A stretch of 41,459 nucleotides of DNA from an uncultured Verrucomicrobiota bacterium (GTDB lineage Bacteria > Verrucomicrobiota > Verrucomicrobiia > Opitutales > Seribacteraceae): positions 1-41,459 of the forward strand of contig CACFTI010000020.1 in assembly GCA_902569115.1 (NCBI GenBank). Direction: 5' to 3'. The translations under genes and the position numbers were made by a program. Positions 7,040 through 23,063 of the stretch are shown here, one piece after another; position 1 is the first letter of the stretch, and each line of letters begins with the position of its first letter. The notes under the pieces are model-generated. The model did no database searches. It saw only the letters and a list, made by a program, of their open reading frames with translations, and was not told where the DNA came from.

Positions 7040-7780
7040 ATGCGTAATATCTTCCCACGTTGGACTAACACAATACCGGTTAAACTTATAATTTCCTTAG
7101 GTCTAATTGGAGGAGTTGTAACCGCTGGCATCACTTATTACGCAACTCCAAAATACACAAGAGTAGGCTACCAACCATCACAACCGGTAGAGTATAATCA
7201 CGAATTTCATGCCGGTCAACTGGGTCTTGACTGCAGATATTGCCACAACGGAGCGGATAAATCATCCCATGCCAACATACCAGGAGCAAACACATGCATG
7301 TCCTGCCACAAGAATGTAAAAGCTGATTCCCCGTTGCTCGAACCAATCCGCAACTCTTACTTCGGCGAAGACACAAATAGAGACGGACAGCTATCTGAGG
7401 AAGAAGACATCAATGGCGATGGCTTATTGACATCTGGTCCTGCAGTCCCCTGGGTACGCATCCACAAAACTCCTGATTATGTCTATTTTAATCACGCCAT
7501 TCATGTTAATCGAGGTATAAGTTGCGTTGAATGCCACGGTAGGATTGATCAAATGGAGGTTGTTCATCATTCAGAACCTCTAAGTATGTCCTTTTGTCTG
7601 GAGTGCCATCGGAAACCCGAAGAGTCTCTCCGCCCCATGGATGAGGTTACCAATTTAGCTTGGCAGGTTCAGCACAACCAAGAAGAATCTAAGGATCTGG
7701 CTCAAATTCACGCCGGATTGAAAATTAAGGAGAATTGGGGAGTTAATCCCCCGCTCAGTTGCACAGGCTGCCATAGATGA
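7040..7780 (+). CDS. actA: ActA, pentahaem cytochrome c subunit of alternative complex III
   Basis: Electron-carrying subunit of the quinol-oxidising alternative complex III. One N-terminal membrane helix (about residues 13-34) is followed by a periplasmic domain with five CXXCH haem sites: CRYCH (65-69), CMSCH (86-90), CVECH (162-166), CLECH (186-190) and CTGCH (241-245), with extra His residues (NHEFHAG, NHAIHV) as distal ligands. Five haems match the family. Between haems 2 and 3 lies an acidic insertion (about 108-132) with a perfect EF-hand-like loop, DTNRDGQLSEEE, and a second partial one. It is the first gene of the operon and overlaps actB by 4 nt (ATGA). Confidence 0.93.
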   Translation: MRNIFPRWTNTIPVKLIISLGLIGGVVTAGITYYATPKYTRVGYQPSQPVEYNHEFHAGQLGLDCRYCHNGADKSSHANIPGANTCMSCHKNVKADSPLLEPIRNSYFGEDTNRDGQLSEEEDINGDGLLTSGPAVPWVRIHKTPDYVYFNHAIHVNRGISCVECHGRIDQMEVVHHSEPLSMSFCLECHRKPEESLRPMDEVTNLAWQVQHNQEESKDLAQIHAGLKIKENWGVNPPLSCTGCHR

Positions 7781-10700
7781 TCCAAACTACTCAAAACTCT
7801 GAAGAAATCCAAGGTAAGCATTACTGGAAAAGCCTTGACGACTTAGCGGATACACCTGGTTTCCGAAGTTGGGTTGATAGTGAATTCCCTGAAGGTGCCA
7901 GTCTCATGGACGGGGTGCAAAGAAGAGGATTCTTGAAAGTGATGGCAGCTTCCTTCGGACTTGCGGGTCTTGGTATGACCGGATGCCGTCGCCCTGAACA
8001 TACGATCCTTCCTCATGGTAGAAGCCCCGAAGAACTTATCCCGGGCATCCCGGCTTATTACTCCAGTTCCAGACCAACTTCAGCAGGCTTTGTTCCTCTC
8101 ATCATTGAGTCGCATGAAGGTCGTCCAACCAAAATTGAAGGAAACTCGAGTTACAAGCTCAGTGGAGGTAGCACAGATGTCTACACACAAGCCAGCATTT
8201 TAGATCTTTATGATCCCGACCGTTCCCGTGGATCTTTTATAAACGAAAATGAGTCCCAGGGAAATGAATCCTCCGCAAGATGGAAAAAGACTCCTTCCGC
8301 AGAGATAAGAAATAATTTAGCAAATATTGAAAATTTTGATCGGGTTGCCATTTTATCTGACTCAAATTTTTCATCCCTGCGCAAATCGTTATTCCAAAAA
8401 TTAGGGCAGAAAGGAGTCAAAGTATTTACGCACGACCCGATAGATTTTCACAATCCTGAAAATTGCTTATCCAAGGCTCTTGGCATTGACTCTAGCCTTC
8501 GAGCAATTCCAAATTTTTCTAAGGCAAAAACTGTCTTATCATTGGATTCCGATTTCTTAGGCCATAGAGAACCAAATTCCTCTGTCAACACCAAGCAATT
8601 CATGCCTGGAAGGAAAGTCCTCTCTCCGTCTGATGCCAAAAAGATGAACCGGCTCTATTCCGTTGAATCTGATCTATCAATAACAGGCGGAGTTGCCGAC
8701 CATCGCCTTCGTCTGTCGTCTTCAGAAATTGAAGGGTTCTCTGCCCTAATTCTAATTAAGTTATTAGAATTATCCGGCGAAAAAAAACCCAAACTCCTTG
8801 AACAACTGACTTTGCTCTCTCAAGGATTGGATAATCACGAAAAGTGGGCAACTGAATCTGCCAAGGATCTCTTCGAAAAACCAAAGCAATCGGTTGTTGT
8901 TGCTGGAAGTCATTTACCCAGTTCTGTACACTTACTTACCTATAAGATTAACCAAATTCTGGGGAATCAATCCACATGTCTTGAATATCTAAAGGTTGAT
9001 AATTTCGCTGGAAACCTTTCATCACTCTGTGAATCGCTCGAGAAAGAGGAAATTGAAACCATTATTTTCCTCGGAGGCAACCCGGTATACCATTGTCCTT
9101 CCGTTGATTGGGTAGATCTTCTCAAATCTACAAAAAACAAGTATCGCTTGGGTCGTTCAATCGATGAAACTTCACAGGTTTGCGACTTTCATATTGGTCA
9201 GTCACATTTCCTAGAATCTTGGGATATGGGAACCAATTGGTCGGAAGACATTTGTTCTCCCGTCCAACCGATCATCGCTCCTCTTTTCGACACTTGTTCC
9301 GATACTGAAATCCTTTCAAGTTTATTAGGTGAAAATAAAAATTCTCACGATCTTTTGCTTGAATTTTTCGAATCCGATGCCGGTGTATCTCAGAAATTTG
9401 AAGATTTCCTAAAACAAGGCGTAGCAAATGTTGAACCTTCATTATTAGCTAACCTACCAAACCCAGATGAAGCGGTTTTAGAAATAAGTACTGATGTCAT
9501 AACCTTATCAGAAAATTCACTTGAAGTTCTTTTGATTCCAGATTTCCACACTTGGGATGGTCAGTTTTCAAATAACGGATGGATGATGGAATGTCCTCAT
9601 CCAATTACCAAACTGACTTGGGATAACGCACTTTTGATTAGTCCAGTTCTCGCCAAAAAACTTGAGGAGAAATATCCAAACTTAGGTCTATTACCTGAGG
9701 CTACGATGCTTAACAAAAACGGCCAAATTGCTCCAGATGCGGCAGTTTTTAAAGATGGCAAACAGCAAGCCCCTATCGTTAGACTTAGAGTTGGCGATCA
9801 TCACGAAATTAAAGCACCTCTTTGTGTGCAACCTGGTTTAGCTGACTACACAGTTGTTTCAACCATAGGGCAGGGACGATCCCGGGTTGGAAGAGTCGGC
9901 TCTGGCACAGGTTTCGACACCTGTTCCTTGATGCATACTGATTCCAATCGAATCAGCAGGGGTGCGACCATCGAACCAACTGGTGATTTTCATATTCTTG
10001 CCAATGTTCAGGAACATTGGTCTATGGAGGGTAGGGCTATCGTTAGGGAAACAAATGCTAAATATTATTCTGAGCATGAAGATTTTGCTCAAAAAATGGG
10101 AGCAGAATCACATTCTCCTCCGATGTGGGGTAAAGATCAGGATGCCAGTATTGCAGAAAAAGCCACTACCACTCCCAGAGGAAACTCGGCCTACGAACAC
10201 CCCGACCACACTTACGAACACTCAGAAACATTTGGACTGCACCAATGGGGGATGAGTATTGATCTCAACCAGTGTACCGGTTGCAGTGCTTGCGTTGTGG
10301 CATGCCAAAGTGAAAACAACATTCCCATAGTAGGTAAAGATCAAGTTCTTCGAGGTAGAGAAATGCACTGGATAAGACTTGATAGATATTTCTCTTCTAC
10401 CGAGAGAGAAGGTGCTGAGTTGCCATCTGATGTTCAGGTTTCTTTTCAAGGCGTGGCGTGCATGCACTGCGAAACAGCCCCTTGTGAGTCAGTTTGCCCT
10501 GTAAATGCTACTGTACACGATGAAGAGGGACTTAATGCAATGGCCTACAACAGATGCGTGGGCACCCGATATTGTGCAAACAACTGTCCTTATAAAGTAC
10601 GACGGTTCAATTTCTTTGATTGGAACAAAAGAAATACGGATGAACTATACCAAGGGCCTCTAGGTGAAAAAAATGACTCCCTAGTCGACATGGGTAAAAA

Positions 10701-11163
10701 TCCGGATGTCACTGTACGAATGAGGGGTGTAATGGAAAAATGCACCTACTGTGTTCAAAGAATTCAAGAAGCCAAAATCAGGACTAAGGTTAATGCACAA
10801 CGTGATGCCAAACTTAGCACTGGTAGTGATGGTGCTGACTTAAATCTAGAGGTTAAAGATCTGAAAGTCCCTGATGGAACTATCCGAACAGCCTGCCAAC
10901 AAGTTTGCCCTTCTGATGCAATTATTTTCGGAGATTTATCTGACCCCGAAAGCGAAGTAAGTAAAATGAAGAATAATCCCAGGGATTACTCTGTACTTGG
11001 ATATTTAAATACCCGTCCACGCACCACATTCCTGGCCAAGGTCAGGAATCCAAACCCGAAAATGCCGGATTACTCCAAAAAACCTCACTCGTACCGTGAA
11101 TACAGCGATAAAGCTTACCCTGCTAATCATGGTGATTCGAAGAAGGAACAATCTACACATTAA
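7777..11163 (+). CDS. actB: ActB, molybdopterin-oxidoreductase-like/iron-sulfur subunit of alternative complex III
   Basis: Large peripheral subunit, 1128 residues, a natural fusion of an MPT-oxidoreductase-like half and a ferredoxin-like half. The N terminus carries a Tat motif ([14 protein letters not shown], Arg49-Arg50) with a lipobox-like Cys at residue 70 (GLGMTGC), suggesting Tat export and possibly lipidation. The C-terminal half has 15 cluster cysteines: 833/836/839/843, 895/898/903/907, 927/933/937, 989/992 and 1040/1044. In RCVGTRYC a Thr replaces one Cys. This count fits three [4Fe-4S] plus one [3Fe-4S] cluster, as known for ActB. The middle region is highly acidic and Ser-rich, as usual for the cofactor-free MPT-like domain. 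Confidence 0.93.
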
Positions 11164-11165
11164 TT

Positions 11166-12578
11166 ATGGGAACGGTGACTGAAAAAACAGATCAACCAGC
11201 TGTACTTGCAAAGGTAAAACCTGCTCCATGGAGGGATCCTCCTTTGGTTGAAAACCGTAGATCTTTTCACTGGGTTACAGAGAAAATTTGTGGAATTGTT
11301 GAATCGAAGACACCTGTATGGTGGTGGTGGTGCTTTATCACAGCCCTTTGCATTGCAAGTTTCACTGGCATGGGTCTTATTTATCTCGTATCAACCGGCG
11401 TTGGTGTTTGGGGTAATAACAACCCTGTCAATTGGGGGTGGGCTATCGTAAACTTTGTTTTTTGGATCGGAATTGGCCATGCGGGCACACTGATATCTGC
11501 AGTTCTTTGCCTCCTTAAACAGAAATGGAGAACTTCGATAAACCGTGCATCTGAAGCGATGACTGTTTTTGCCGTGCTCTGTGCAGGTATCTTCCCTCTA
11601 TTTCATGTTGGCCGAGTTTGGTTTGCCTGGTGGTTATTCCCCATTCCCAACGCCAATGCAATTTGGCCACAATTTCGGAGTCCCCTGGAATGGGATGTGT
11701 TTGCAGTTTCTACTTATGCAACTGTCTCGATTTTATTTTGGTACATGGGAATGATACCAGACTTGGCGGTGTTAAGGGATCGGGCAAAAGAAACATGGAG
11801 AAAATATTTTTATGGTGTTCTCTCAATGGGATGGAGAAATGCAAACAATCATTGGAGAAACTTTGAAATGGCTTACTTGTTGTTGGCAGGTTTATCCACT
11901 CCTTTGGTTTTATCCGTCCATACGATCGTTTCCTTTGACTTTGCTGTAGCCAATCTGCCTGGTTGGCATACCACTATTTTCCCACCTTATTTTGTTGCTG
12001 GTGCGATTTTCTCCGGCTTCGGCATGGTGCTCACCTTGCTACTCCCACTGCGTGCTATTTATGGTCTCCATGATCTATTGACACAAAGGCACATCGACAA
12101 CATTTGTAAAATCACTTTAGCAACCGGGAGCATGGTTGGCTACGCCTACGCGATGGAATTTTTCATAGCATGGTACGGTGCGAACTCCTATGAAGGTTTT
12201 GCATTTATCAACAGAGCATTCGGAAATTATTGGTGGTCTTATTGGATAATGGTTTCTTGCAATGTTATCAGCCCACAGCTCTTTTGGTTCAAAAAGATTA
12301 GGGAGAACATTCCACTTGTTTGGATAATTTCAATTTTTGTCAACATTGGCATGTGGTTTGAAAGATTCGTGATTGCAAACACAACTCTATCCCGTGACTT
12401 CCTTCCATCCAGTTGGGGGTATTATTCTCCGACTGTTGTAGATTTATTTACTTTCTTTGGAACCTTTGGATTTTTCTCAGTACTTTTTCTTCTTTTCTTA
12501 CGATTCCTTCCTCTTATGCCGATGGCAGAGGTGAAAATGGTTATGCCACAAGCTGACCCCCATGGAGGTAAACATTAA
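11166..12578 (+). CDS. actC: ActC, NrfD/PsrC-like membrane subunit of alternative complex III
   Basis: Polytopic quinol-binding subunit, 470 residues, with about ten hydrophobic segments beginning [19 protein letters not shown] near residue 51. Family-typical pieces include [15 protein letters not shown] (a conserved His in the membrane near the quinol site), [17 protein letters not shown] and the late [20 protein letters not shown]. The start ATG lies 2 nt after the actB stop. It is paired with actF as the second NrfD-like subunit, as in characterised alternative complex III, where quinol oxidation at ActC feeds electrons to ActB and ActA. Confidence 0.93.
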
Positions 12579-12584
12579 TTTACC

Positions 12585-13136
12585 ATGAGCAAAGTCATGG
12601 ACATTAAGTATGGGATTTCCGCAACCTTTAATTCGGCGAAGGATATCTATGAAGCGGCAGGTAAAGTTCGTGATAAAGGTTTCACAAGTTGGGAGTGTTA
12701 CACACCCATGCCTATTCACGGACTTGACGGACAAATGGGGTATGGCAGATCGAAAGTTCCCTGCTTTACATTAGCAGGTGGTATCACTGGATTTTTTACA
12801 GGAATGCTAATCGTTTGGTTTATGAATGCTTTTGATTACCCCTTAATTGTTGGAGGGAAGCCTTATTTTAGCCCAATTTATCCTTTTCCTGTGTTTTATG
12901 AACTCACAATTCTTTTTGCTGCTTTTGGTACCTTGTTTGGGATGTTTTTCCTAAACCGTTTACCTCGGCACAACCATCCCGTTTTCGAACACAAAAATTT
13001 CGGTAGAACCGGGGATGACAAGTTCATGATCGTAATAGAAATAGAAGACCCATTATTTGATGATGAAGACACTGAATCCTTCCTCAAAGATCTCGGTGGT
13101 AAATCTGTTTCCATTATTCGAGAGCCAATTGAATAG
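12585..13136 (+). CDS. actD: ActD, two-helix membrane subunit of alternative complex III (DUF3341)
   Basis: A 183-residue protein with a cytoplasmic N-terminal alpha/beta part (YGISATFNSAKDIYEAAGKVRDKGF), then GYGRSKVPCFTLAGGITG and two membrane helices at about residues 58-82 and 102-123. The C-terminal tail (DDKFMIVIEIEDPLFDDEDT) completes the DUF3341 pattern. Known members form the ActD subunit next to ActC. It lies between actC (6-nt gap) and actE (directly adjacent), which fixes the identity. Confidence 0.92.
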   Translation: MSKVMDIKYGISATFNSAKDIYEAAGKVRDKGFTSWECYTPMPIHGLDGQMGYGRSKVPCFTLAGGITGFFTGMLIVWFMNAFDYPLIVGGKPYFSPIYPFPVFYELTILFAAFGTLFGMFFLNRLPRHNHPVFEHKNFGRTGDDKFMIVIEIEDPLFDDEDTESFLKDLGGKSVSIIREPIE

Positions 13137-13787
13137 ATGAGATATTTCATTCCAATATTTTTTATTCTTGTTGTCACTGTAGTTTCAATCATGGGATTAA
13201 GGGGTGATTTAACCGAAAATACCCCACTGGAAGTTTTTCCAGACATGGATCGTCAGGCTAAATACAAATCTCAAACACAAAATGATTTCTATGGAGATAA
13301 AAAAGCGGATCGCTTACCTGTAGCAGGAACCGCCATCAGGGGTACTGCGCTTGAAATAAACAATGTATTTTCAGAAAACCCTGCTTTCAGTAATTTGGCT
13401 TTCAGAACTGGAAAAAGTGATGATGAATCATGGGTAAATAAAATCCCTGATGAAGCGGTTATTGACATGTCGTTAATGCGCCTCGGAAAAGAAAGATATG
13501 ACATCCATTGTGCTATATGTCATGGCACATACGGAAATGGAAATGGTGTTATGAAAGAATTCTTGGGCGTTGCTCCTAGAAATCTATCTGACCCTGAGTT
13601 AACTAACTATCTAGAGCCTGCAGGACCTATCCCAGATGGGAAAATTTTCCACACAATTAGTATGGGAGCCGGAAACATGCTTGGACTTAAAGATAAACTT
13701 TCCCCTAAAGAACGTTGGGCTATCGTGCTCTATGTGCGAACACTTCAATCTTATGTGAGCGAAGCACATTCGTCGGCCAAAAACTAA
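13137..13787 (+). CDS. actE: ActE, monohaem cytochrome c subunit of alternative complex III
   Basis: A 216-residue protein with one N-terminal hydrophobic helix (about residues 3-20) and one haem site, CAICH (125-129), followed by the GTYGNGNG loop. Met181 in GAGNMLG is the likely sixth ligand. The family signature EVFPDMDRQAKYKSQ follows the membrane helix. The only cysteines are those of the haem motif, so unlike lipidated ActE proteins this one must be held by its helix. The start codon follows the actD stop immediately. It probably passes electrons from ActA to the downstream cytochromes. Confidence 0.9.
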   Translation: MRYFIPIFFILVVTVVSIMGLRGDLTENTPLEVFPDMDRQAKYKSQTQNDFYGDKKADRLPVAGTAIRGTALEINNVFSENPAFSNLAFRTGKSDDESWVNKIPDEAVIDMSLMRLGKERYDIHCAICHGTYGNGNGVMKEFLGVAPRNLSDPELTNYLEPAGPIPDGKIFHTISMGAGNMLGLKDKLSPKERWAIVLYVRTLQSYVSEAHSSAKN

Positions 13788-13789
13788 AA

Positions 13790-15094
13790 ATGAGTGACCA
13801 ATCAAAAGATTCTCAGTCAGGATTTGACTTACAAACCAAACTTCTAGGTGGAGCTGTCATCGGATTGGGAGTGGGATTAATTGGTCTGTTTTATGGTTTG
13901 TCCTCAGGTGATAAAAGTCCCTTCCTCGGATGGCTGTGGGGATCATCATTTTGGTTAAGCATAGCCATTGGATTATTAATGCTGATTATGATTTTCAGGA
14001 TATTTAATTCCCATTGGACTCCAATTGTTCGTCGTCAACAGGAGCACGGACTCGCAGCTTTTCCGTGGCTTGGGCTATGTCTACTACCCCTGATACTCGT
14101 TGGATGGTTAGGTGGCGAACAAGCAGGTATACTTTGGACTTGGATTAATCCAGATGCTCAAACAATTGAGGCTAGAAGCATTACGACTGTATCTGAGGAT
14201 GTTCTTCACCAAAAAAAAGCAGGTTACCTAAATCTTGGCTTCTTTACCATTAGACTTATTATTTATTTTGGGATTTTTTGTGGTCTCAGTTATTGGTTAA
14301 GGAAAGTTTCCTTTAATCAAGATAAGGATGGTGATCCGATGTGGTCACGCTTAGGCGTAAAGATCTCAGCTGCCGGTATTCCTGCAGCTGCATTAGCCCT
14401 TACCTTTGGTGCCTTTGATTTATTTATGAGTCTAGAATACCAATGGTTTTCTACGATGTATGGTGTTTGGTACTTTGCTTCGGGTATAAGGTCAGCCCTC
14501 GCTGTTACTATTATAGTTTGCTTCTATCTCTCCTCTAAAAATAGAGCTCTCAACGGACTCTACAAACAAGCCCATCAATATGACTTGGCATGCCTATCAC
14601 TCGCTTTCACCGTCTTTTGGGCATATATCAGTTTCTCTCAGTACTTCCTCATTTACAGTGCCAATATTCCTGAAGAAACATTTTGGTATGTCATTCGGGA
14701 GATCAATCCAAACACAGGCGAACAATCAGGCTGGTTTTGGGTAAGCATGGGTTTAATTTTTGGTCATTTCTTCTTTCCCTTCCTTTATCTGCTTTTTTAT
14801 CAAAATAAAATTAATGGTCCCAGACTTGTATTTATCGTGTCATGGATTCTAGTTTTTCACTTATTAGACCTCTATTGGAACATAATCCCTGGGCGTGAAA
14901 TTTCACCCGGAGCCTATGTTGGCTTTGAAGCCAGACCAGTTTTGGGCTCTCATTTACTATGGGGCATTTTCAGTCTTGTAGGCATTGGTTGCCTATGTGC
15001 ATGGAGCGTACTCAAAAGCTTCAACTCCCAACTAGCAGAAATAATACCGATTCGGGATCCCCGAATTTTAGATTCTATTCATCATCATGAGTGA
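13790..15094 (+). CDS. actF: ActF, second NrfD-like membrane subunit of alternative complex III
   Basis: Polytopic membrane subunit of about 434 residues with roughly ten helices, paralogous to ActC. Typical pieces are WLWGSSFWLSIAIGLLMLIMI, FPWLGLCLLPLI, FGAFDLFMSLEYQWFSTMYG and the late WNIIPGREISPGAYVGFE. An in-frame ATG upstream at 13715 lies inside actE and would add 25 non-membrane residues; ATG at 13790, 2 nt after the actE stop, is preferred. The 3' end overlaps the next small gene by 8 nt. Confidence 0.9.
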   Translation: MSDQSKDSQSGFDLQTKLLGGAVIGLGVGLIGLFYGLSSGDKSPFLGWLWGSSFWLSIAIGLLMLIMIFRIFNSHWTPIVRRQQEHGLAAFPWLGLCLLPLILVGWLGGEQAGILWTWINPDAQTIEARSITTVSEDVLHQKKAGYLNLGFFTIRLIIYFGIFCGLSYWLRKVSFNQDKDGDPMWSRLGVKISAAGIPAAALALTFGAFDLFMSLEYQWFSTMYGVWYFASGIRSALAVTIIVCFYLSSKNRALNGLYKQAHQYDLACLSLAFTVFWAYISFSQYFLIYSANIPEETFWYVIREINPNTGEQSGWFWVSMGLIFGHFFFPFLYLLFYQNKINGPRLVFIVSWILVFHLLDLYWNIIPGREISPGAYVGFEARPVLGSHLLWGIFSLVGIGCLCAWSVLKSFNSQLAEIIPIRDPRILDSIHHHE

Positions 15095-15371
15095 TCCTGA
15101 ACTTAAAAAAGCTGACGGTTGCGATATTTTCTTTTCGCTCATCATTGTGATCGTGCTATTAGCAGGTTTTTTCATTTTTCAAGCGATGAGTGAACCAGAA
15201 GAACCTCGCGATGCTGATTACTATTCTGCTCAAGAGAGAATTAAAAAAATCGCATCTCATAAGGGCATTGATTCAGAATACAATTCTCAAATAGATAGCT
15301 TTCATTTGGAGAATAACTCCTCCATGGAAAAAATCATGACCAACGTAATTAACCAATACAAAGGAAAGTGA
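15087..15371 (+). CDS. Small single-helix membrane protein between actF and the CcoN homologue
   Basis: A 94-residue protein with a short cytoplasmic N terminus, one membrane helix (about residues 14-34) and a polar, mostly helical tail with many Glu, Asn and Ser. No haem or metal motif is present. It starts inside the end of actF (8-nt overlap) and its TGA overlaps the GTG start of the CcoN homologue, so it is probably translated with both. It could be a small structural subunit such as ActG or a CcoQ-like or CcoH-like assembly helper, but no sequence similarity to these was recognised. Confidence 0.72.
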   Translation: MSDPELKKADGCDIFFSLIIVIVLLAGFFIFQAMSEPEEPRDADYYSAQERIKKIASHKGIDSEYNSQIDSFHLENNSSMEKIMTNVINQYKGK

Positions 15372-16765
15372 AGAAAACTTCAGAACAACAAATTGACCAA
15401 TCAGCCAAGTTTGCGTTCTCCTTTTTCGTGGCTTCAGCAGGTTTGTGGTTACTTGCAGCGGCATTACTTGCTTACATTGCAGCAGCTAAGCTGACCGATC
15501 CACTTTTCTTATCTTCCTGGGAATTTTTCACATACGGAAAGATCAAGATTTCACAAGCGAACGCTTTTGTTTACGGTTGGGGAGGAAATTCCATCTTTGC
15601 AGTCAGTTTATGGATAGTTGCAAGATTATCCCAATCCCCTGTACGAGGGACAATTTTCTTAATTTTTGCAGGATCAATGTGGAATTTAGCTATAACATTT
15701 GGTTTGCTTGGTATTTTGGATGGACACATGCTTGGACATGAACTCCTAGAAATGCCTAAGGAAGTATGGCCTGCTCTTTTCATATCTTACCTTATCATCG
15801 CTTTCCTGATTCTTGTTGTTTTTAGAAGTCGTCGACAAAGTGTTACGATTGCACCGCAATGGTTTATTGTTGCAGCATTGATTTGGTTCCCTTGCTTATT
15901 CCTTTTCGCATGGAATGGATTAGAGATAAACGCGGGTAGAGGTACATTACAGTCGATTCTATCTATGTGGTTCGGTCAAAACATTATTTGGCTTTGGCTA
16001 ACTCCCGTAGCATTAGGATGCGCATATTACATTATCCCATCTGTCTTAAATCGTCCCATAGATAAGTATTACTTGGCTATTTTCGGATTTTGGTGCATCG
16101 CAGGGTTGGCTCCCTGGTCCGTGGTTCACCATTTGGAAGGAGGCCCCGTGCCTATGTGGGTCCCTGCTATTGGCACAGTTATGAGCATTGCAATGGTATT
16201 CCCCATTGCTGTTGCTTCCACTAATTTTCATGCCACCGCTTTTAAAGATATTTCAAGAGTATGGAATTATTTGCCCCTACGTTTTGTTATTTTCGGCACA
16301 TTATCATACACTATATCTAGTTATATTGGTGTAATATTTTCAGTTCCTGCAGTGGCAAAGCTAACACAATTTTCAATCATCAATGAATTTCATTTCAATC
16401 AGCGTGTGTACGGTTTCTTCAGTATGATCATTTTTGGAATGGTTTATCATATTCTCCCACAAGTGACTGGAAAAGAGATCGGTACCGCTGCTAAAAACTT
16501 TCATTTCTGGACATCGGCTCTCGGCGTATTTGCACTTCTATTGGCATACCTCATCGGTGGGCTAACTCATGGTGTTTTGGCTCAACAACCTTCTTTGGCT
16601 TGGATCAATGTGATTGAGTCAGTTAAACCTTACTTTTTAATTACTGAATTCGCTTTTCTGATTCTTGGGTTCTCGCAACTCGTGTTCGTACTTAATCTTT
16701 GGAAAGTCATCGTACCAAACCCCTTCTCATGTTGTGAGAAAAATTTAGAACAAAAAACTGCTTGA
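15368..16765 (+). CDS. ccoN: CcoN homologue (cbb3-type subunit I) with altered haem and CuB ligands
   Basis: A 465-residue polytopic membrane protein with about 12 helices, starting at GTG (GTGA overlap with the upstream gene). It is clearly homologous to cbb3 oxidase subunit I: GWGGNSIFAVS, MWFGQNIIWLWLTPVALG, the VVHHLEGGPVPMW pair His254-His255, EFHFNQRVYG with His342 (high-spin haem position) and a closing NLWKVI. However, residues expected in an active oxidase are different: Gln63 (low-spin haem His), Gln204 (CuB His), Ala248 (cross-linked Tyr), Ile320 (conserved Glu) and Asn344 (second low-spin haem His). The gene is intact and coupled to its neighbours, so decay is unlikely. Function may not be oxygen reduction. 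The homology is secure; the activity is not. Confidence 0.85.
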   Translation: MKKTSEQQIDQSAKFAFSFFVASAGLWLLAAALLAYIAAAKLTDPLFLSSWEFFTYGKIKISQANAFVYGWGGNSIFAVSLWIVARLSQSPVRGTIFLIFAGSMWNLAITFGLLGILDGHMLGHELLEMPKEVWPALFISYLIIAFLILVVFRSRRQSVTIAPQWFIVAALIWFPCLFLFAWNGLEINAGRGTLQSILSMWFGQNIIWLWLTPVALGCAYYIIPSVLNRPIDKYYLAIFGFWCIAGLAPWSVVHHLEGGPVPMWVPAIGTVMSIAMVFPIAVASTNFHATAFKDISRVWNYLPLRFVIFGTLSYTISSYIGVIFSVPAVAKLTQFSIINEFHFNQRVYGFFSMIIFGMVYHILPQVTGKEIGTAAKNFHFWTSALGVFALLLAYLIGGLTHGVLAQQPSLAWINVIESVKPYFLITEFAFLILGFSQLVFVLNLWKVIVPNPFSCCEKNLEQKTA

Positions 16766-17916
16766 TGAACAATATTTTCAAGTTTGCAATTTATATATTT
16801 CTAACCTTGGCGTTTGCCTGGCTGGCCTTTTTTGTTGGTGCTAAAAACCAATACGGAGATTTAGAACCTACTTCGCAATACCTTGAAGAAAATAATTCTA
16901 TTCCCAAAGGTGCCGATCTATTTCCTCAATCTATGCCTGGTGTTGCTCAACTAGGTGCCAAAGAATACCTTTCACTTGGTTGTGTAACATGTCATACACA
17001 ACAAGTTCGTACAATTGATGCGGGATTTGATGTTGAAAGAGGGTGGGGGAAAAGACCTTCAGTTCCTCGTGACTATATTTTACAAAAAGAGGTTTTACTT
17101 GGGCATAACCGAGTTGGTCCGGACTTAGCAAATATTGGACTTCGTGGCTACACCCGCGAATGGTTGCATAAGCATTTGTTTAATCCACAAATTTTAGTAG
17201 AGGGTTCTATCTGCCAACCAAGCCCATTTCTTTACGATATAAGCAACGAAAGATCTTCAGGGGCAATAAATGCTGATAATAAAGCTGATGACAATGTTTC
17301 TACTATTTTTATTAAGCCATCTTTAAGGGCAAATCGAATTGTATCGTACTTACAATCTCTTAAACAGGATTATGAACTTCCTGAAATGTCATTTATTGAG
17401 ACCCAAGACGAAGATGATACTGAAGATATTAAATTAGCAGAGGTAGGTACTGCCAAAGATGATCAAGTTGGTTTGCCCACTTGGCTTGCTGATCAAATTG
17501 CATCGGGAAAAGAAATTTACTCTAAAATAACTCCTGGTGGAGGGATGTGCGTTGCTTGTCACTTACCAAACGGTTTAGGACAACCTGGAGCTATTCCACC
17601 ACTTGATCGCTCCGATTGGGTCCTTGGTGATAAGGAGCGTTTAATTAAGATTTCCATCCATGGACTTATGGGTGAAGTGGTTGTTAATGAAGAAAAGTAT
17701 GTTGGTGTAATGCAAGGTTTCGGACAACCTTTGGGATCCCCTTTAAATGATCAACAAATTGCAGATGTGCTGACATACATACGCAACGAATGGGGTAATT
17801 CAGTTTCCGCAATTTCTCCAGAAGAGGTAAAAGCGGTACGTGATTCAGAAAAAGATCGTGAACTAACCGCAATGTGGACTGAAGCTGAATTACAAAAAGA
17901 AAATTCTTCCGACTAA
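16762..17916 (+). CDS. ccoO: CcoO homologue fused to a second cytochrome c domain (dihaem)
   Basis: A 384-residue protein with one N-terminal membrane helix (about 6-26), then a CcoO-like domain with CVTCH (74-78), TQQVRT, a GHNRVGPDLANIG segment and HLFNPQ. Where CcoO normally has the Met ligand (an NMPAY-like motif), this protein reads GSICQPSPFLYD, with Cys151. After an acidic linker (about 205-240) comes a class I cytochrome c domain with CVACH (263-267) and a likely Met317 ligand. Canonical CcoO has one haem, so the second domain is an extra that resembles CcoP. It starts at ATGA overlapping the CcoN stop. Confidence 0.85.
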   Translation: MMNNIFKFAIYIFLTLAFAWLAFFVGAKNQYGDLEPTSQYLEENNSIPKGADLFPQSMPGVAQLGAKEYLSLGCVTCHTQQVRTIDAGFDVERGWGKRPSVPRDYILQKEVLLGHNRVGPDLANIGLRGYTREWLHKHLFNPQILVEGSICQPSPFLYDISNERSSGAINADNKADDNVSTIFIKPSLRANRIVSYLQSLKQDYELPEMSFIETQDEDDTEDIKLAEVGTAKDDQVGLPTWLADQIASGKEIYSKITPGGGMCVACHLPNGLGQPGAIPPLDRSDWVLGDKERLIKISIHGLMGEVVVNEEKYVGVMQGFGQPLGSPLNDQQIADVLTYIRNEWGNSVSAISPEEVKAVRDSEKDRELTAMWTEAELQKENSSD

Positions 17917-17925
17917 TTTATATCT

Positions 17926-18600
17926 ATGAGCATTGAAAAAATGAGCAGCGAAGAAATCCGGTCATCAGGGATGAAAGATGACAAGCTAGTTGATGAACAT
18001 GTTCGTTTAAATGAAATCAAACACGAGCCCACTAAAGGGTTCTTACAAGCACCTCTTATCTTTGTTTTTGTTTTTGGATGTCTCATTTTTGTCTGTTCTA
18101 TCCAATTGGCTCATACCACCAACGATTTCGCACTTCATCCGCCCGAAGAAATAATCGAATTAACACCGGATGAAAAAGAAGCTTTACGAATAGAAAGAAA
18201 AATTAGTTCGGGAGAAAAGATCTTTGCTGCAAGATGTGCTTCTTGCCATCAGACCAATGGCCTTGGAATAGTGGGTCAATATCCTCCACTTGCCGGCTCG
18301 GAGTGGGTTACTTCTGACCCGGGGATCATTACCAATATTATTCTCAAGGGCCTTAAAGGTGAAATCGTGGTCAAGGGAGAGACTTATGGAACAACAGCTG
18401 CAGTCAATATGGCTGCAGTAGCTATTAATGATAGCGAAATCGCTAATGTGGTATCCTATGTCCGACAAGCTTGGGGAAATAATGCTGAAGAGATTTTTGA
18501 AGATGAAGTTGCCTCCATTCGTGCTGACTCTGCTGAGAAACAAGATCAATGGACTGGAGATCAAATAATTTCCATGTATCCAGAATCATTTGCCAAATAG
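17926..18600 (+). CDS. Membrane-anchored monohaem cytochrome c (CcoP-like)
   Basis: A 224-residue protein with a polar N-terminal tail of about 40 residues, one membrane helix (about 42-62) and a periplasmic cytochrome c domain with CASCH (104-108), YPPLAGSEWV and a likely Met162 ligand. The domain closely resembles the extra C-terminal domain of the preceding gene (both have the PPL..S.WV and KGEIVV/GEVVV patterns), suggesting duplication. In-frame ATG codons at 17926 and 17941 are both possible. It ends the respiratory operon and is the likely outlet for electrons to another acceptor, or the CcoP counterpart of the complex. Confidence 0.82.
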   Translation: MSIEKMSSEEIRSSGMKDDKLVDEHVRLNEIKHEPTKGFLQAPLIFVFVFGCLIFVCSIQLAHTTNDFALHPPEEIIELTPDEKEALRIERKISSGEKIFAARCASCHQTNGLGIVGQYPPLAGSEWVTSDPGIITNIILKGLKGEIVVKGETYGTTAAVNMAAVAINDSEIANVVSYVRQAWGNNAEEIFEDEVASIRADSAEKQDQWTGDQIISMYPESFAK

Positions 18601-18655: not shown

Positions 18656-19969
18656 GTGTGGGTTAAAACTTATAGTCCATTTAGGGGTCTACTCCAAATT
18701 CTGTCCTTCTTTTTGGTAGCAGGTACATCGGGGAATGTAGAAGATCATTTCCCTGAACTAGGTGAAATTTTAAATAATGTGGAGGAGTATTCTCCAATTC
18801 TTATAGAAAAAAATTATGTGATTCAAGAGCGACTTGGACAGCAAATGATAGCGGAATCAGCTAAGGGTATGTCCCTTTCAATCAACTTATCAACGCAATC
18901 TATTCACGAAGATAGACCTAACCAATCCTTCTATCACCGTTACCGTTCTTTCGGGTCTATCTATGCAAGAAAACCCTTATTTCACTGGGGAGCATTAGAC
19001 GCACAAAGTAAGATTGCCATCAAAAATACTCACATTTCAAAATTAACATATAACGAAGCGATTTCTAATGTTATTTCTCAATCTCGCCGCAGTTACTTAG
19101 AATCAATGCTTCTACAAAAAAAAGCTGAAATCAAAAATGAATCACTACTAATTCAACGAGAATCGCTAAAGCGCGAAATAAAGCAGAACAAACTCGGGTT
19201 AAGCTCTGCTTTAGATGTAAGTGAATCAAATGCCTCTCTTCTTCAAAACGAATTACTCCTAGCTGACCTACGACAATCTCTCGATAATTCCGTCAATCAA
19301 TTCAAGTCAATTACAGGTTGGGAAGGTAATCTTACTTTTGTAGAAAAAAATAATTCAATTCACAATTTACTTTCTTCAAAGCTGATTGACGAAAAAAAAC
19401 CAGCTTTAATTGCCGGAATATCATCTAGAACGATAAAAAGAATAGAAATAGAAATAGAGATAGAAAAAAATCAATTCACCATCGCAAATAGTCAATTAAA
19501 GCCAAAATTAAACTTAGTGAGCGGTTTTTATCAGGACCAAGTTGCACTTGCTAACAGCGATGACAGTTTATTACGAAACAATTTCGTTGTTGGCCTTGAA
19601 GCTAACTGGGCAATCTGGGACTCATCAAAAAGCAAGGGTCAAAAAACTGCTGCCCTTGCACGTAAGCGAAGTCTTGAATATGCACTTGAAAGAGAATTGA
19701 AAAGTTTTCGTCTTTATATTGAAAACCTTCGGCAGAATCTTTCTTCCGCGGCAAACCGTATACAAATAAGTAATAAACTCTTGGAAGTAGCCAACAGCCG
19801 TTTTGAAACAAGCAGGCTTGAATTCGACGCAAAACGCATAAGTGAAAACAAGCATTTGGAATCTAAAATTGCATTGGATAATGCTAAAATCAAACACTTG
19901 GAATCAGTCTGCCAGTACCTTAAAAATAAAGATCTATATCTTGACGCAATCCAGCAGATCCATGAATAA
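18656..19969 (+). CDS. TolC-family outer-membrane efflux protein
   Basis: A 437-residue protein with a signal-peptide-like N terminus (hydrophobic stretch about residues 10-25). Two long helical repeats of the TolC type follow, marked by a hydrophobic pattern and motifs such as LNNVEEYSPILIEKN, NKLGLSSALDVSESNASLL and NFVVGLEANWAIWDSSKSKG. It would form the outer-membrane channel of the tripartite pump encoded by the next three genes. The start is GTG at 18656, the only one that retains the signal peptide, with no clear Shine-Dalgarno sequence. The gap after the respiratory operon is 55 nt with no visible terminator. The end overlaps the adaptor gene by 8 nt. Confidence 0.82.
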   Translation: MWVKTYSPFRGLLQILSFFLVAGTSGNVEDHFPELGEILNNVEEYSPILIEKNYVIQERLGQQMIAESAKGMSLSINLSTQSIHEDRPNQSFYHRYRSFGSIYARKPLFHWGALDAQSKIAIKNTHISKLTYNEAISNVISQSRRSYLESMLLQKKAEIKNESLLIQRESLKREIKQNKLGLSSALDVSESNASLLQNELLLADLRQSLDNSVNQFKSITGWEGNLTFVEKNNSIHNLLSSKLIDEKKPALIAGISSRTIKRIEIEIEIEKNQFTIANSQLKPKLNLVSGFYQDQVALANSDDSLLRNNFVVGLEANWAIWDSSKSKGQKTAALARKRSLEYALERELKSFRLYIENLRQNLSSAANRIQISNKLLEVANSRFETSRLEFDAKRISENKHLESKIALDNAKIKHLESVCQYLKNKDLYLDAIQQIHE

Positions 19970-21107
19970 ATCGAACAAAGTAAGAAAGCCTGCAAAAATA
20001 ATCCTGATTTTGGCGGGAATTGTCTTAGTTGTAATGGTAATACAATTAGCCCAAGAGCAATTAAAAAGGGATGCTTTCGTAAATACAGTAAAAATGGGAA
20101 GTATTCGCGACTCTGTTAGCGGTAACTTAAATGTACTACCCACGCTAAGTTTTCAGCTGAGTGCAGAGACCCAGTCAAAGGTCAAATATGCAGCTTTAAT
20201 TCCATTTGGTAAACCTATTCAAGTAGATGAGAATCAAACACTTTACCTGATGGACACAACCGACCTTGATCGAAGTTTGGAAAGAACAAAACTCTCTCAA
20301 GCATCACATCAAAAAAGATTAGAAATAGGCTCATCGATTGAATTACAACTGAAATTAGAGGAAAAAAATCTTAGTGCACTCCAGACTCTTTTTGAAGAAA
20401 ACGGTCAGGATGTTTCAGAGTTTGAATTAGAATCCAAGCAAAACCTGGTTGAGCGTTTGAGAAGACAGCATGAATTGGAAACAATAAATAATGAAGAGAA
20501 CAGCCAAGAATTTACACTTGAGATAGATAGGATACGGGAGGAGTTAAAAAAGCGAAGAATTTTAAGTCCAATAAAAGGAACACTGATCTCATCTTCAGTA
20601 AAGAAAGGTGACACAATATTTGGTGGACAAGTCATGGGAGAAGTTCAATCAAATGAAAGAATTATTGAAGTAACTTTAAACGAAGAAGACTTTGCCGGTA
20701 TAAAGGAAGGACAAAAAGTAGGTGTTACCTTGTTTTCTTTCGGAAATGAAATTTTAGAAGGTGTCGTCACCTCACTATCTGCCAATGTCAATTCAGCGAA
20801 TGGACTCCGTAAGCTATTTGTGAAATTAAATTCAAACAAAATTTTGCCCGTAGGTTCCTCTGGCAGGGCTGAAATTATAAAACAAGAGATTCAAGATGCC
20901 TTGATAATCCCAAGAAAGGCATTATTGGGAAATTCTGTTTTTACCGTGCGTGACGGGAAAGCCTGGCAAGTAAAAGTTCAGACAGGAGCCAAAAATTTAG
21001 AATATGTTGAAATAAAAAAAGGATTAAAGGCTAATGACCTTGTAATATCTGAAACCCCTCATCTCTTTTACGATGGGGAACAGGTTACTCATATTCTTAT
21101 AGAATAA
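19962..21107 (+). CDS. Periplasmic adaptor (membrane fusion) protein of ABC efflux system
   Basis: A HlyD/MacA-type adaptor of 381 residues. It has an N-terminal membrane anchor (about residues 10-27), a long alpha-hairpin region (about 90-185) with many Glu, Lys and Leu, then a lipoyl/barrel half-motif RILSPIKGTLISSSVKKGDTI and a beta-barrel and membrane-proximal region ending VISETPHLFYDGEQV. The start is taken at 19962: an earlier in-frame ATG (19842) lies deep inside the TolC gene and would add 40 residues unlike a leader. It should bridge the FtsX-like permease and the TolC protein. Confidence 0.83.
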   Translation: MNKSNKVRKPAKIILILAGIVLVVMVIQLAQEQLKRDAFVNTVKMGSIRDSVSGNLNVLPTLSFQLSAETQSKVKYAALIPFGKPIQVDENQTLYLMDTTDLDRSLERTKLSQASHQKRLEIGSSIELQLKLEEKNLSALQTLFEENGQDVSEFELESKQNLVERLRRQHELETINNEENSQEFTLEIDRIREELKKRRILSPIKGTLISSSVKKGDTIFGGQVMGEVQSNERIIEVTLNEEDFAGIKEGQKVGVTLFSFGNEILEGVVTSLSANVNSANGLRKLFVKLNSNKILPVGSSGRAEIIKQEIQDALIIPRKALLGNSVFTVRDGKAWQVKVQTGAKNLEYVEIKKGLKANDLVISETPHLFYDGEQVTHILIE

Positions 21108-21120
21108 TTTTTGCGATAAG

Positions 21121-22371
21121 GTGAAGTTTCTAAACCTGGAATTAGCATGGAAATATGTGCTTGGGCGAAAAAGAGCAATGACGATGAGCCTATTTGGCAT
21201 TGTTCTCGGTATCGCCTTTTTTGTTATCACTCAGGCACAAACATCTGGATTTGAAGCTTTTTTCATTAGAACAATCCTTGGTACAAATGGGGCTATACGG
21301 ATATCTGACCGCTTCCAAGACATGCATGGAACAGTTCGAATGTCTTCTCAGGATGGTAGGACAAAGTTTCTATTCAATTCTAGAGAAGGCACCAGATATA
21401 CAGAAGGTATTTCAAACCCAAAACTCCTACGAAGTGCCTTAAAACAATTTTCTGAAATTTCTGGTATTTCTGAAATTCTTGAGGGAAGTGCAGTCATTGC
21501 AGGAACATCAAGATCACAAAATGTGGAAATCCATGGAATTATTCCATCGGAACATGTGATGGTTTCAGATATTGAAAATCAAATTATTGAAGGAGAACTA
21601 AAAACATTTGAGTTAGAACCTATGTCTATTCTTTTGGGAAAGCGAATAGCTCAGCGATTAATGCTGCAAACAGGGGAAAGAATCACGCTCAAAGGAGGCA
21701 CAGGGAATATTCGTCTCCGTATTGCCGGAATCTTCGAAACAGGTGTCAGCCAAATTGATAAGAACCGTGCCTACATACATCTATCCACAGCCAAATCATT
21801 TCTTGGAAAAAGATTCTCAGGTTCAATCTTTCAGTTATCTATGTTCGAGCCTGAAAAAGCACCTGAAATTTCTGCTCAAATTCAGGAAACAACATCTCAT
21901 CGAGTTGTAAGTTGGCAGGAGCGAGAGCAAGTATGGCTCGATGTGTTCAAAGCGCTTAGAATTTCTTCAGCCATTACTGTATCTAGCATACTTTTACTTT
22001 CGGGATTAGGAATTTTTAATGTCTTTGCAATCATGGTTATTGAAAAAACAAGGGATATTGCAATTCTACGATCTATAGGATTTAAGCCTTCAGATGTATC
22101 CTCAGTTTTTTTATGGCAGGGAGGAATTGTACTTTTCATTGGCATCATACTTGGAACTCTTGTGGGCATTTTTTCAACTTATGTAATTTCAAGTATCCCT
22201 CTTAGAATTCGAGGTATTTTCTCTACTGATAGTTTCGTCGTAAACTGGGACCCATCTCATTATTTATGGGCAGTACTGATTGCAGTGATCTTTGTATCCA
22301 TCGCCAGTTGGATTCCAGCAAGAAGAGCTGCTAAGATTGAGCCCGCTAAGATCATTCGAGAAACATTATAA
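21121..22371 (+). CDS. FtsX/MacB-type ABC transporter permease
   Basis: A 416-residue permease with the usual four-helix layout: one helix near residues 20-42, a large periplasmic MacB-like domain (about 45-270), then three C-terminal helices beginning ISSAITVSSILLLSGLGIFN, with the conserved EKTRDIAILRSIGFKPSDV loop between helices 2 and 3 and the closing ASWIPARRAAKIEPAKIIRE. The start is GTG at 21121. Its last base is shared with the first base of the ATPase gene (TAATG). MacB proper is fused to its ATPase; here the two are separate, as in LolC/E-D. Confidence 0.88.
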   Translation: MKFLNLELAWKYVLGRKRAMTMSLFGIVLGIAFFVITQAQTSGFEAFFIRTILGTNGAIRISDRFQDMHGTVRMSSQDGRTKFLFNSREGTRYTEGISNPKLLRSALKQFSEISGISEILEGSAVIAGTSRSQNVEIHGIIPSEHVMVSDIENQIIEGELKTFELEPMSILLGKRIAQRLMLQTGERITLKGGTGNIRLRIAGIFETGVSQIDKNRAYIHLSTAKSFLGKRFSGSIFQLSMFEPEKAPEISAQIQETTSHRVVSWQEREQVWLDVFKALRISSAITVSSILLLSGLGIFNVFAIMVIEKTRDIAILRSIGFKPSDVSSVFLWQGGIVLFIGIILGTLVGIFSTYVISSIPLRIRGIFSTDSFVVNWDPSHYLWAVLIAVIFVSIASWIPARRAAKIEPAKIIRETL

Positions 22372-23063
22372 TGTCTAATTCTCAAGAAATATTACTTAAA
22401 GCTCAGGAATTACACCATTCCTTTGCTGAGGGTGTTCGTAAGAATAGAGTGCTCAAAGGTGTATCGCTACAGGTTGAAGCTGGAGAAACAACCTCTGTGG
22501 TTGGACCATCCGGTTGTGGTAAGAGTACATTACTTTACCTCTTAGGACTACTCGATCGCCCTGAAAGTGGAAATATACTTCTCCAAGGTTCAGATGTAAC
22601 CCAATCGTCTGACAAAATTAAGACTCAATTACGCAATCAATCTATTGGGTTTATTTTTCAATTTCATTTTTTAATTAAGGAACTGACCGTAATCGAAAAT
22701 GTGTCACTTCCATTACGGAAATCAGGACTTAATGCAGAGGACTCAAAGGAAAAGTCTATGCTTGTGTTACAACAACTAGGTTTGGAATCTAAGGCAACGC
22801 GTTCCGCTAATAAGCTTTCAGGAGGAGAACAGCAAAGAGTCGCCATTGCCAGGGCTATGGTTAATTCGCCCTCCTTAATTTTAGCTGATGAGCCAACAGG
22901 AAATTTGGACAGTGAAAATTCACAAAAAGTTTTTGATTTACTACAGGAGCTTGCAGAAAGAGATAACCTAGGCGTACTTATAGTCACACATAATACAGAT
23001 TTAGCCCTGAAAACTGATAATCTGATTCGTATGCAAGATGGTCTGATTGTTAAAGATTCGTAA
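22371..23063 (+). CDS. ABC transporter ATP-binding protein (LolD/MacB-type)
   Basis: A 230-residue nucleotide-binding subunit with Walker A GPSGCGKST (residues 45-53), a Q-loop (IFQFHFLIKEL), signature LSGGEQQRVAIARA, Walker B LILADEPTGNLD and the H-loop VTHN. The DEPTGNLD form is typical of the LolD/MacB/FtsE group that works with FtsX-type permeases. It powers the mechanotransmission pump formed with the three preceding genes. The substrate could be a lipid, peptide or small molecule and cannot be told from the sequence. The 3' end overlaps the convergent DnaJ-domain gene by 14 nt. Confidence 0.9.
   Translation: MSNSQEILLKAQELHHSFAEGVRKNRVLKGVSLQVEAGETTSVVGPSGCGKSTLLYLLGLLDRPESGNILLQGSDVTQSSDKIKTQLRNQSIGFIFQFHFLIKELTVIENVSLPLRKSGLNAEDSKEKSMLVLQQLGLESKATRSANKLSGGEQQRVAIARAMVNSPSLILADEPTGNLDSENSQKVFDLLQELAERDNLGVLIVTHNTDLALKTDNLIRMQDGLIVKDS

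Follow-up and report, generated by a model that had tools for sequence, protein, structure and literature searches.

The membrane part of standard alternative complex III (ACIII) is made of ActC and ActF, subunits of the NrfD-like type, which interact with quinone and whose fold is unrelated to that of CcoN, subunit I of the cbb3-type (C-type) oxidases. A C-type oxidase has been described together with ACIII only in verrucomicrobial methanotrophs and Opitutaceae (PMC8498564). In the methanotrophs cbb3 is counted among three terminal oxidases (PMC8498564), is named in two further studies (PMC11102522, PMC10205796) and has been linked to high oxygen affinity (PMC6688271). Among the papers listed in searches of the open literature, no description was seen of a CcoN protein devoid of cofactor ligands encoded beside ACIII. 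Here we analyze a candidate for such a protein, encoded in a stretch of 41,459 nucleotides (hereafter the window, our contig G000:C20) from the 2.38 Mb, 70% complete genome of an uncultured member of Verrucomicrobiota.

Gene content of the locus

The window carries what reads as the full ActABCDEF gene order of ACIII, with ActD and ActF named by position (Table 1). Homologues of ActD occupy the same place in most of the loci that reach that far, with none detected in L117. For ActF we took the ATG that begins MSDQSK as the start, in place of the TTG at 13715 given in the ORF list. The act operon continues without a break into the genes of a 94-aa protein (with no Pfam family above the cut-off) and of CcoN-like, CcoO-like and CcoP-like proteins. 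The gene of the small protein overlaps both ActF and the CcoN-like gene, and the latter overlaps its adjacent genes, in agreement with the coupling claimed in the sequence-only reading that drew attention to it; the cytochrome partners announced there are also present, as a CcoO-like and a mono-haem CcoP-like gene. The window therefore holds the ccoNOP gene order with haem-c partners, the CcoP-like one having a single haem motif, not two. On the opposite strand the act operon is adjoined by a gene for an FAD-dependent oxidoreductase (PF12831; 4653-6857). The cytochrome genes are followed by export genes (TolC-like, HlyD-like, FtsX/MacB-like and LolD-like; 18656-23063), the order of which is the same in five other loci of the family that cover at least 18 kb (L052-L056).

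Table 1. Genes of the act operon and of its continuation in the window
Product	Position	Strand	Basis of assignment
ActA, pentahaem cytochrome c	7040..7780	+	five CxxCH; QrcA, 68.9 bits
ActB, molybdopterin-oxidoreductase-like protein with fused Fe-S domain	7777..11163	+	ncbifam
ActC, NrfD/DsrP-like membrane subunit	11166..12578	+	DsrP match
ActD	12585..13136	+	named by position; ncbifam: no match
ActE, mono-haem cytochrome c (one CxxCH)	13137..13787	+	ncbifam, CxxCH
ActF, membrane subunit	13790..15094	+	named by position
94-aa small protein, one likely membrane segment	15087..15371	+	
CcoN-like putative pseudo-oxidase subunit I	15368..16765	+	Pfam COX1, 3mk7 alignment, fold model
CcoO-like protein fused to a second cytochrome c domain	16765..17916	+	CxxCH at 74 and 263 (from TTG at 16762)
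Mono-haem cytochrome c, CcoP-like, likely membrane anchor	17926..18600	+	ncbifam, Pfam, CxxCH

Cofactor ligands and fold of the CcoN-like protein

The CcoN-like ORF starts with GTG and encodes 465 aa. In a phmmer search of PDB chains, residues 23-448 aligned with residues 20-459 of CcoN from Pseudomonas stutzeri (3mk7_A; E-value 1.1e-28), with no gap around the ligand motifs, as stated in the sequence-only reading. According to this alignment both His ligands of the low-spin haem b are replaced (H60 by Gln63 and H347 by Asn344), as are one CuB ligand (H207 by Gln204), the cross-linked Tyr (Y251 by Ala248) and the Glu of the STFEGP motif (E323 by Ile320); the other two CuB ligands (H257/H258, here His254/His255) and the ligand of the high-spin haem b3 (H345 in chain numbering, here His342) are retained. 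Four of the seven ligand or cross-link positions are changed, in addition to the Glu, precisely at the residues listed in the sequence-only reading. The protein matches Pfam COX1 with 138 bits (cut-off 34.8) and the ncbifam ccoN model with 115 bits, far under the cut-off of 583. An AlphaFold2 model (mean pLDDT 85.5; 22 sequences) folds as CcoN: the best Foldseek matches are CcoN structures (TM 0.87-0.88 to 3mk7), with a weaker match to the NOR fold (TM 0.79). On the evidence of this model the protein has the haem-copper superfamily fold and is nearest to CcoN. It would not classify as a cNOR or qNOR, which have all the haem His ligands and an FeB site; in the aligned sequence the ligands of the low-spin haem are absent.

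The CcoN-like gene was found in 30 of 42 genomes of the window's family, including all 14 of good quality. In three of the genera, which together have 28 matches, we read 25 sequences (the window included). Gln63, Gln204, Ala248, His255, Ile320, His342 and Asn344 are identical in all 25, and His254 is replaced (by Asn) in only one, L055. The agreement of all 25 sequences and the gap-free alignment of the motifs rule out sporadic mutation or misalignment, and homologues of the same clade with the canonical residues were not encountered among the family sequences read.

The three His residues, kept in 24-25 of the 25 sequences, could indicate a protein that still binds one cofactor, in the form of a five-coordinate haem b at His342, a metal at His254/His255/Gln204 or both, which would serve as a sensor, NO-handling or electron-storage site; Gln204 is moreover common to these three genera and a fourth (L052, L053). 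We consider such a function unlikely. The fourth, sister genus has lost His254, His255 and His342 as well, and no variation occurs at 224 of the 441 aligned positions, about half, across these 25 sequences, so that retention of the three His residues is weak evidence either way. Additionally, three positions near the ligands that are Gly in 74, 74 and 73 of the 74 ligand-complete homologues described below are occupied in 25 of 25 sequences by Trp208, Arg346 and Phe430, respectively, the side chains of which may fill the haem pockets.

Distribution in the phylum and repeated loss of ligands

Matches to the CcoN-like protein were found in 124 of 387 genomes searched across the phylum; the nearest named records are uncultured Opitutales, Opitutia and Verrucomicrobia. 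Some of the matches are ordinary fused cbb3 genes (L123, L126-L128); the better-matching loci form one lineage at the same position of the act operon. An ActF homologue lies upstream on the same strand, at most 905 bases away, in 66 of 68 loci. The two others are L076, which starts at the CcoN-like gene, and L131 (extended as L134), where ActF and the CcoN-like gene stand about 7 kb apart, with other genes between them, one of these for a LolD-like ATPase. According to PMC11102522, Methylacidiphilum caldifontis has a nos cluster within its act cluster, and by its position the gap in L131/L134 would fit such an arrangement.

The comparison set, after addition of named records and removal of identical ones, comprised 171 non-identical sequences of the lineage, of which 74 are ligand-complete (His/His/Tyr/His-His/His/His) and 97 lack one or more of these residues. 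Written in the order H60, H207, Y251, H257, H258, E323, H345, H347, the incomplete members vary widely (e.g. HSAQKAFI, AHSSRMRW, QQGRHIQQ, FEAADHVQ and SESSHGFV). The canonical residues in other families most likely represent the ancestral state. The Glu of STFEGP is absent from all 171 sequences, the ligand-complete ones included, and its absence is therefore uninformative about loss of function; as a sign of inactivity it was ruled out. The earlier claim that normal oxygen reduction looks impossible is supported, as far as can be judged from sequence.

A careful tree was built from 87 chosen rows, of which 27 are complete, 54 are incomplete and 6 belong to the outgroup, with the ligand columns left out. 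On this tree the incomplete group requires 5 label changes, at least four of them forced by well-supported branches, and over 200 bootstrap trees the number is 4-6 (5%-95% range). A quick tree of 111 rows (ligand columns and 18 near-duplicates left out) gave 3 changes. The placement of L120, L117, L072, L070 and other long branches is unsure. Under the assumption of no regain, the individual losses amount to 9 for H60, 10 for H207, 5 for Y251, 9 for H257, 17 for H258, 6 for H345 and 6 for H347. Two half-decayed sequences were found: L198 (HHQRHIHH) is without the Tyr and one CuB His and retains the haem ligands, and L209 (YHTRHIHH) lacks, besides the Tyr and one CuB His, one of the ligands of the low-spin haem. 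The careful tree gives no support to a single origin of the ligand-less form. It seems from the careful tree that ligands were lost independently several times, at least four, and the recurrence of ligand loss across the lineage is confirmed at the level of sequence, which makes the phenomenon wider than first noted: the window's case is not confined to one clade and appears to be one of several parallel decays of an oxidase that already belonged to the act operon.

Other CcoN genes were met in these searches. L177 and L205, metagenome-assembled records with doubtful titles naming Akkermansia muciniphila, hold complete CcoN genes of the lineage. L118, L119, L122 and L129, from other families of the phylum, hold a different CcoN-like gene, ligand-complete and with Gln at the position of the Glu, neighbored by an ORF with seven CxxCH motifs and a CcoO-like gene. 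In L121, L124 and L125, from order-level relatives, a further C-family type (motifs YYMHQGV and GTHHF) adjoins an ORF with two CxxCH motifs.

Loss of ccoS and presence of other oxidases

For the analysis of ccoS, three loci were added to the set of 171, and 5 loci had too little upstream sequence. A model built from the complete loci found ccoS directly upstream in 72 of 72 ligand-complete loci (weakest match 1.2e-20) and in 0 of 97 incomplete ones, none of which, the window's included, reached 0.01. The independently built Pfam FixS matched in 18 of 71 genomes, 17 times beside a ligand-complete gene and once, in G336, next to a canonical cbb3 gene. Because 7 of the 24 genomes that have a complete gene went unmatched, a lack of FixS matches is by itself weak evidence; with this not fully sensitive model no match was found in the window's 70% complete genome or in the 12 genomes of the family searched. 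In Rhodobacter capsulatus, according to PMC5742617, cbb3 oxidase is assembled without CcoS but is inactive. Absence of CcoS from the window's locus, together with the lack of FixS matches in the family, speaks further against retention of a single cofactor. Among the versions of a membrane partner of ACIII that had been envisaged, that of a haem-free structural subunit fits best; the one-haem version is disfavored because ccoS is absent, Trp208, Arg346 and Phe430 replace Gly and the sister genus has lost the three His residues, and nothing positive emerged for the proton-conducting version.

COX1 proteins were counted in 70 genomes: 46 carry an incomplete and 23 a complete CcoN-like gene, and the remaining one, G049, has no CcoN-like match. 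Each of the 46 genomes of the incomplete kind gave no fewer than two COX1 matches, and only one match was found in 2 of the 23 with a complete gene (G042 and G187, in neither of which a bd oxidase was found); in G428, from the same genus as these two, the sole COX1 match is again the complete gene. In this sample, then, the complete form can be the only COX1 protein of a genome and the incomplete form never is. A search of the window's genome revealed a separately encoded caa3-type cluster on another contig (G000:C1), comprising CtaB, CtaC with a cytochrome domain, CtaD, CtaE, CtaF and CtaG.

That the CcoN-like protein could still be active, as an oxidase or NO reductase working with atypical ligands, is suggested by nothing beyond its fold and the three His residues. 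It lacks the Tyr, the two ligands of the low-spin haem and one of those of CuB, no ccoS was found in the locus and the genome encodes another oxidase, and we regard such an activity as extremely improbable. Based on its sequence, the protein has very likely lost its function as an oxidase.

Retention and selection

ActC was found in 135 of the 387 genomes, 28 of them in other classes, which lie outside the comparison of act loci. In the window's order, all 56 sampled genomes with ActC (E-value at most 1e-60) have the CcoN-like gene and five other genomes have neither; in G413 the CcoN-like gene is present and ActC is unmatched at E-value 1e-60, its locus (L099) holding an ActC homologue. The notion of a maintained neighbor of the ACIII genes is thereby borne out in the order sampled. 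Elsewhere in the class, the CcoN-like gene accompanies ActC (at most 1e-150) in 34 of 36 genomes. The other two, G049 and G410, showed none in single-sequence and profile searches. It is also missing from 14 genomes of genus g41, in which the ActC match is weaker. Some genomes with ActC can thus do without the gene. In a genome of the methanotroph family, an ActC match with one in-frame TAA was seen (G193:C1:359900-360967), possibly due to an assembly error.

Loss of ligands many times and in no fixed pattern, and the two genomes of the class that seem to have ActC and to lack the gene, are what one might expect of a relict drifting towards a pseudogene and held by operon linkage alone. This explanation is highly improbable in view of the 56 of 56 retention with ActC, and several features of the sequences also oppose it: dN/dS is 0.042 for the CcoN-like gene (0.036 for ActF and 0.114 for the CcoO-like gene), as calculated from the closest pair only, synonymous sites being saturated in ten other pairs and one more pair being unusable owing to N bases; no in-frame stop occurs among the CcoN-like matches listed; and W201, P130, P260 and P262 are kept in all 64 incomplete sequences outside the window's three genera. 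The preserved structural residues and the position of the gene between act and cytochrome genes would agree with a chaperone-like or regulatory protein for assembly of the c-type cytochromes of ACIII or caa3, which is not a stable subunit itself. This we consider very unlikely, given that CcoO-/CcoP-like partners, bound to CcoN in known cbb3 enzymes, are encoded in 68 of 68 loci.

A polytopic membrane protein kept beside a complex whose proton pumping is debated (PMC8498564) could alternatively be an ion-conducting subunit, in which the old proton pathway of the oxidase couples ACIII turnover to proton movement. Glu125 and Glu128 are conserved in 24 and 25 of the 25 sequences of the three genera, respectively, but among the 64 other incomplete homologues only 25% keep Glu125 and 67% Glu128. 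The membrane part of the standard complex is, besides, already supplied by ActC and ActF, and an ion-conducting role appears distinctly unlikely.

Cytochrome partners and proposed role

Two haem-c ORFs lie directly 3' of the CcoN-like gene in each of the 68 distinct loci. The next gene after them encodes an aa3-type CtaD-like protein in 22 loci, and CtaC followed by CtaD is found downstream in 3 more (L083, L115 and L116). These 25 loci belong to five families, all outside the window's order, and include one ligand-complete locus, L083; among the loci checked from the window's order, none showed an aa3-type gene beside the act operon. From this gene order (ACIII, CcoN-like module, aa3 oxidase) we propose for the CcoN-like protein the role of a membrane scaffold that positions c-type cytochromes between ACIII on one side and the aa3/caa3 oxidase on the other. 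Operon structure and co-retention with ActC suggest that it may be a physical member of ACIII.

The CcoO-like partner has a peculiarity of its own. Cys151 (counted from the TTG at 16762) aligns with the Met of SKMPSYP in 3mk7_B, which we take to be the axial haem ligand of CcoO. This position is Met in 28 of 28 complete loci and Cys in 24 of the 25 of the window's three genera (L006 could not be aligned); in the 64 other incomplete loci it is Met in 37, Cys in 17 and another residue or a gap in 10. To judge from this substitution, the haem in the window's CcoO-like protein may have a different potential, and a plain high-potential relay through it is not assured.

Taken together, the CcoN-like protein is probably a pseudo-oxidase without haem b or copper, kept as a membrane scaffold of cytochrome c at ACIII. 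In the ancestor, the act operon would have been extended by a working C-family oxidase (ccoS, ccoN, ccoO, ccoP), which together with ACIII formed a quinol oxidase. Where the ligands decayed, another terminal oxidase, usually of aa3/caa3 type, would have been able to carry out O2 reduction; the cross-linked Tyr, the CuB and haem ligands and CcoS would have been lost, and the fold and the two cytochrome genes kept. The remaining role of the CcoN fold would be that of a membrane scaffold, supporting a CcoO/CcoP-like module of cytochrome c that is joined to ACIII. In the window's organism electrons might pass from menaquinol through ActB/ActA/ActE and the c haems of the module to the caa3-type oxidase encoded on G000:C1. 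In this scheme we infer the absence of the cofactors, the order of the losses and the electron relay. We tentatively speculate, as a possibility of less than even likelihood, that ACIII, the pseudo-cbb3 module and aa3 form a megacomplex, in which the emptied oxidase is a permanent membrane bridge and the c-haem module was re-tuned in some lineages (Met to Cys in CcoO).

Homologues in the methanotroph family

All six genomes searched in one other family of the phylum (f12) contain the AMO/pMMO family and by this content are verrucomicrobial methanotrophs. The five CcoN-like sequences read from this family lack the ligands, with the strings SESSHGFV (L120, L131, L220 and L221) and ADAAHLQT (L117), and in L120, L131 and L117 an aa3-type CtaD follows the CcoN-like module. 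An AlphaFold model of the L120 protein (mean pLDDT 84.2) resembles CcoN with query-normalized TM 0.85-0.86. To judge from these sequences, the "cbb3 oxidase" beside ACIII of methanotrophs appears to be the same kind of ligand-less protein, and if the f12 sequences stand for the published strains, it is not an oxidase. Because Pfam COX1 still matches such proteins (50 bits for a methanotroph-family homologue, above the same cut-off as for the window protein), genomes that encode them may be credited with a high-affinity cbb3 oxidase, and a correction of their annotation would follow. If our reading is true, a catalytic respiratory subunit turned into a scaffold several times in parallel, with ccoS gone from the locus each time, which would amount to a natural experiment on the uses of the CcoN fold beyond catalysis; the role of the ACIII partners becomes testable in cultured relatives.

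Comparison with known systems

The window's protein and CcoN of P. stutzeri (3mk7) are alike in predicted fold, in length and in the ccoN-ccoO-ccoP gene order, at about 21-22% sequence identity, but the former lacks the ligands of the low-spin haem b, one CuB His, the Tyr and the Glu. Unlike canonical cbb3 loci, the window's locus has no ccoS, and its CcoP-like partner is mono-haem. With the ACIII and aa3/caa3 systems of Flavobacterium johnsoniae and Rhodothermus marinus, as presented in PMC8552683, it shares the ActABCDEF order; an aa3-type oxidase just downstream is a feature of the 25 of 68 loci from other verrucomicrobial families, whereas here the act genes are followed by the module of CcoN-like, CcoO-like and cytochrome c proteins. 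The CcoN-like protein would resemble the NrfD-like ActC and ActF (PMC8076601) in being a membrane subunit without redox cofactors. A further published counterpart is the "cbb3-type oxidase" beside ACIII of methanotrophs and Opitutaceae (PMC8498564, PMC6688271 and PMC11102522), encoded by a homologous gene next to the act genes. In these papers it is described as a terminal oxidase, whereas the f12 sequences that we read are without the ligands, and the Opitutales sequences of the lineage are in part ligand-complete and in part not.
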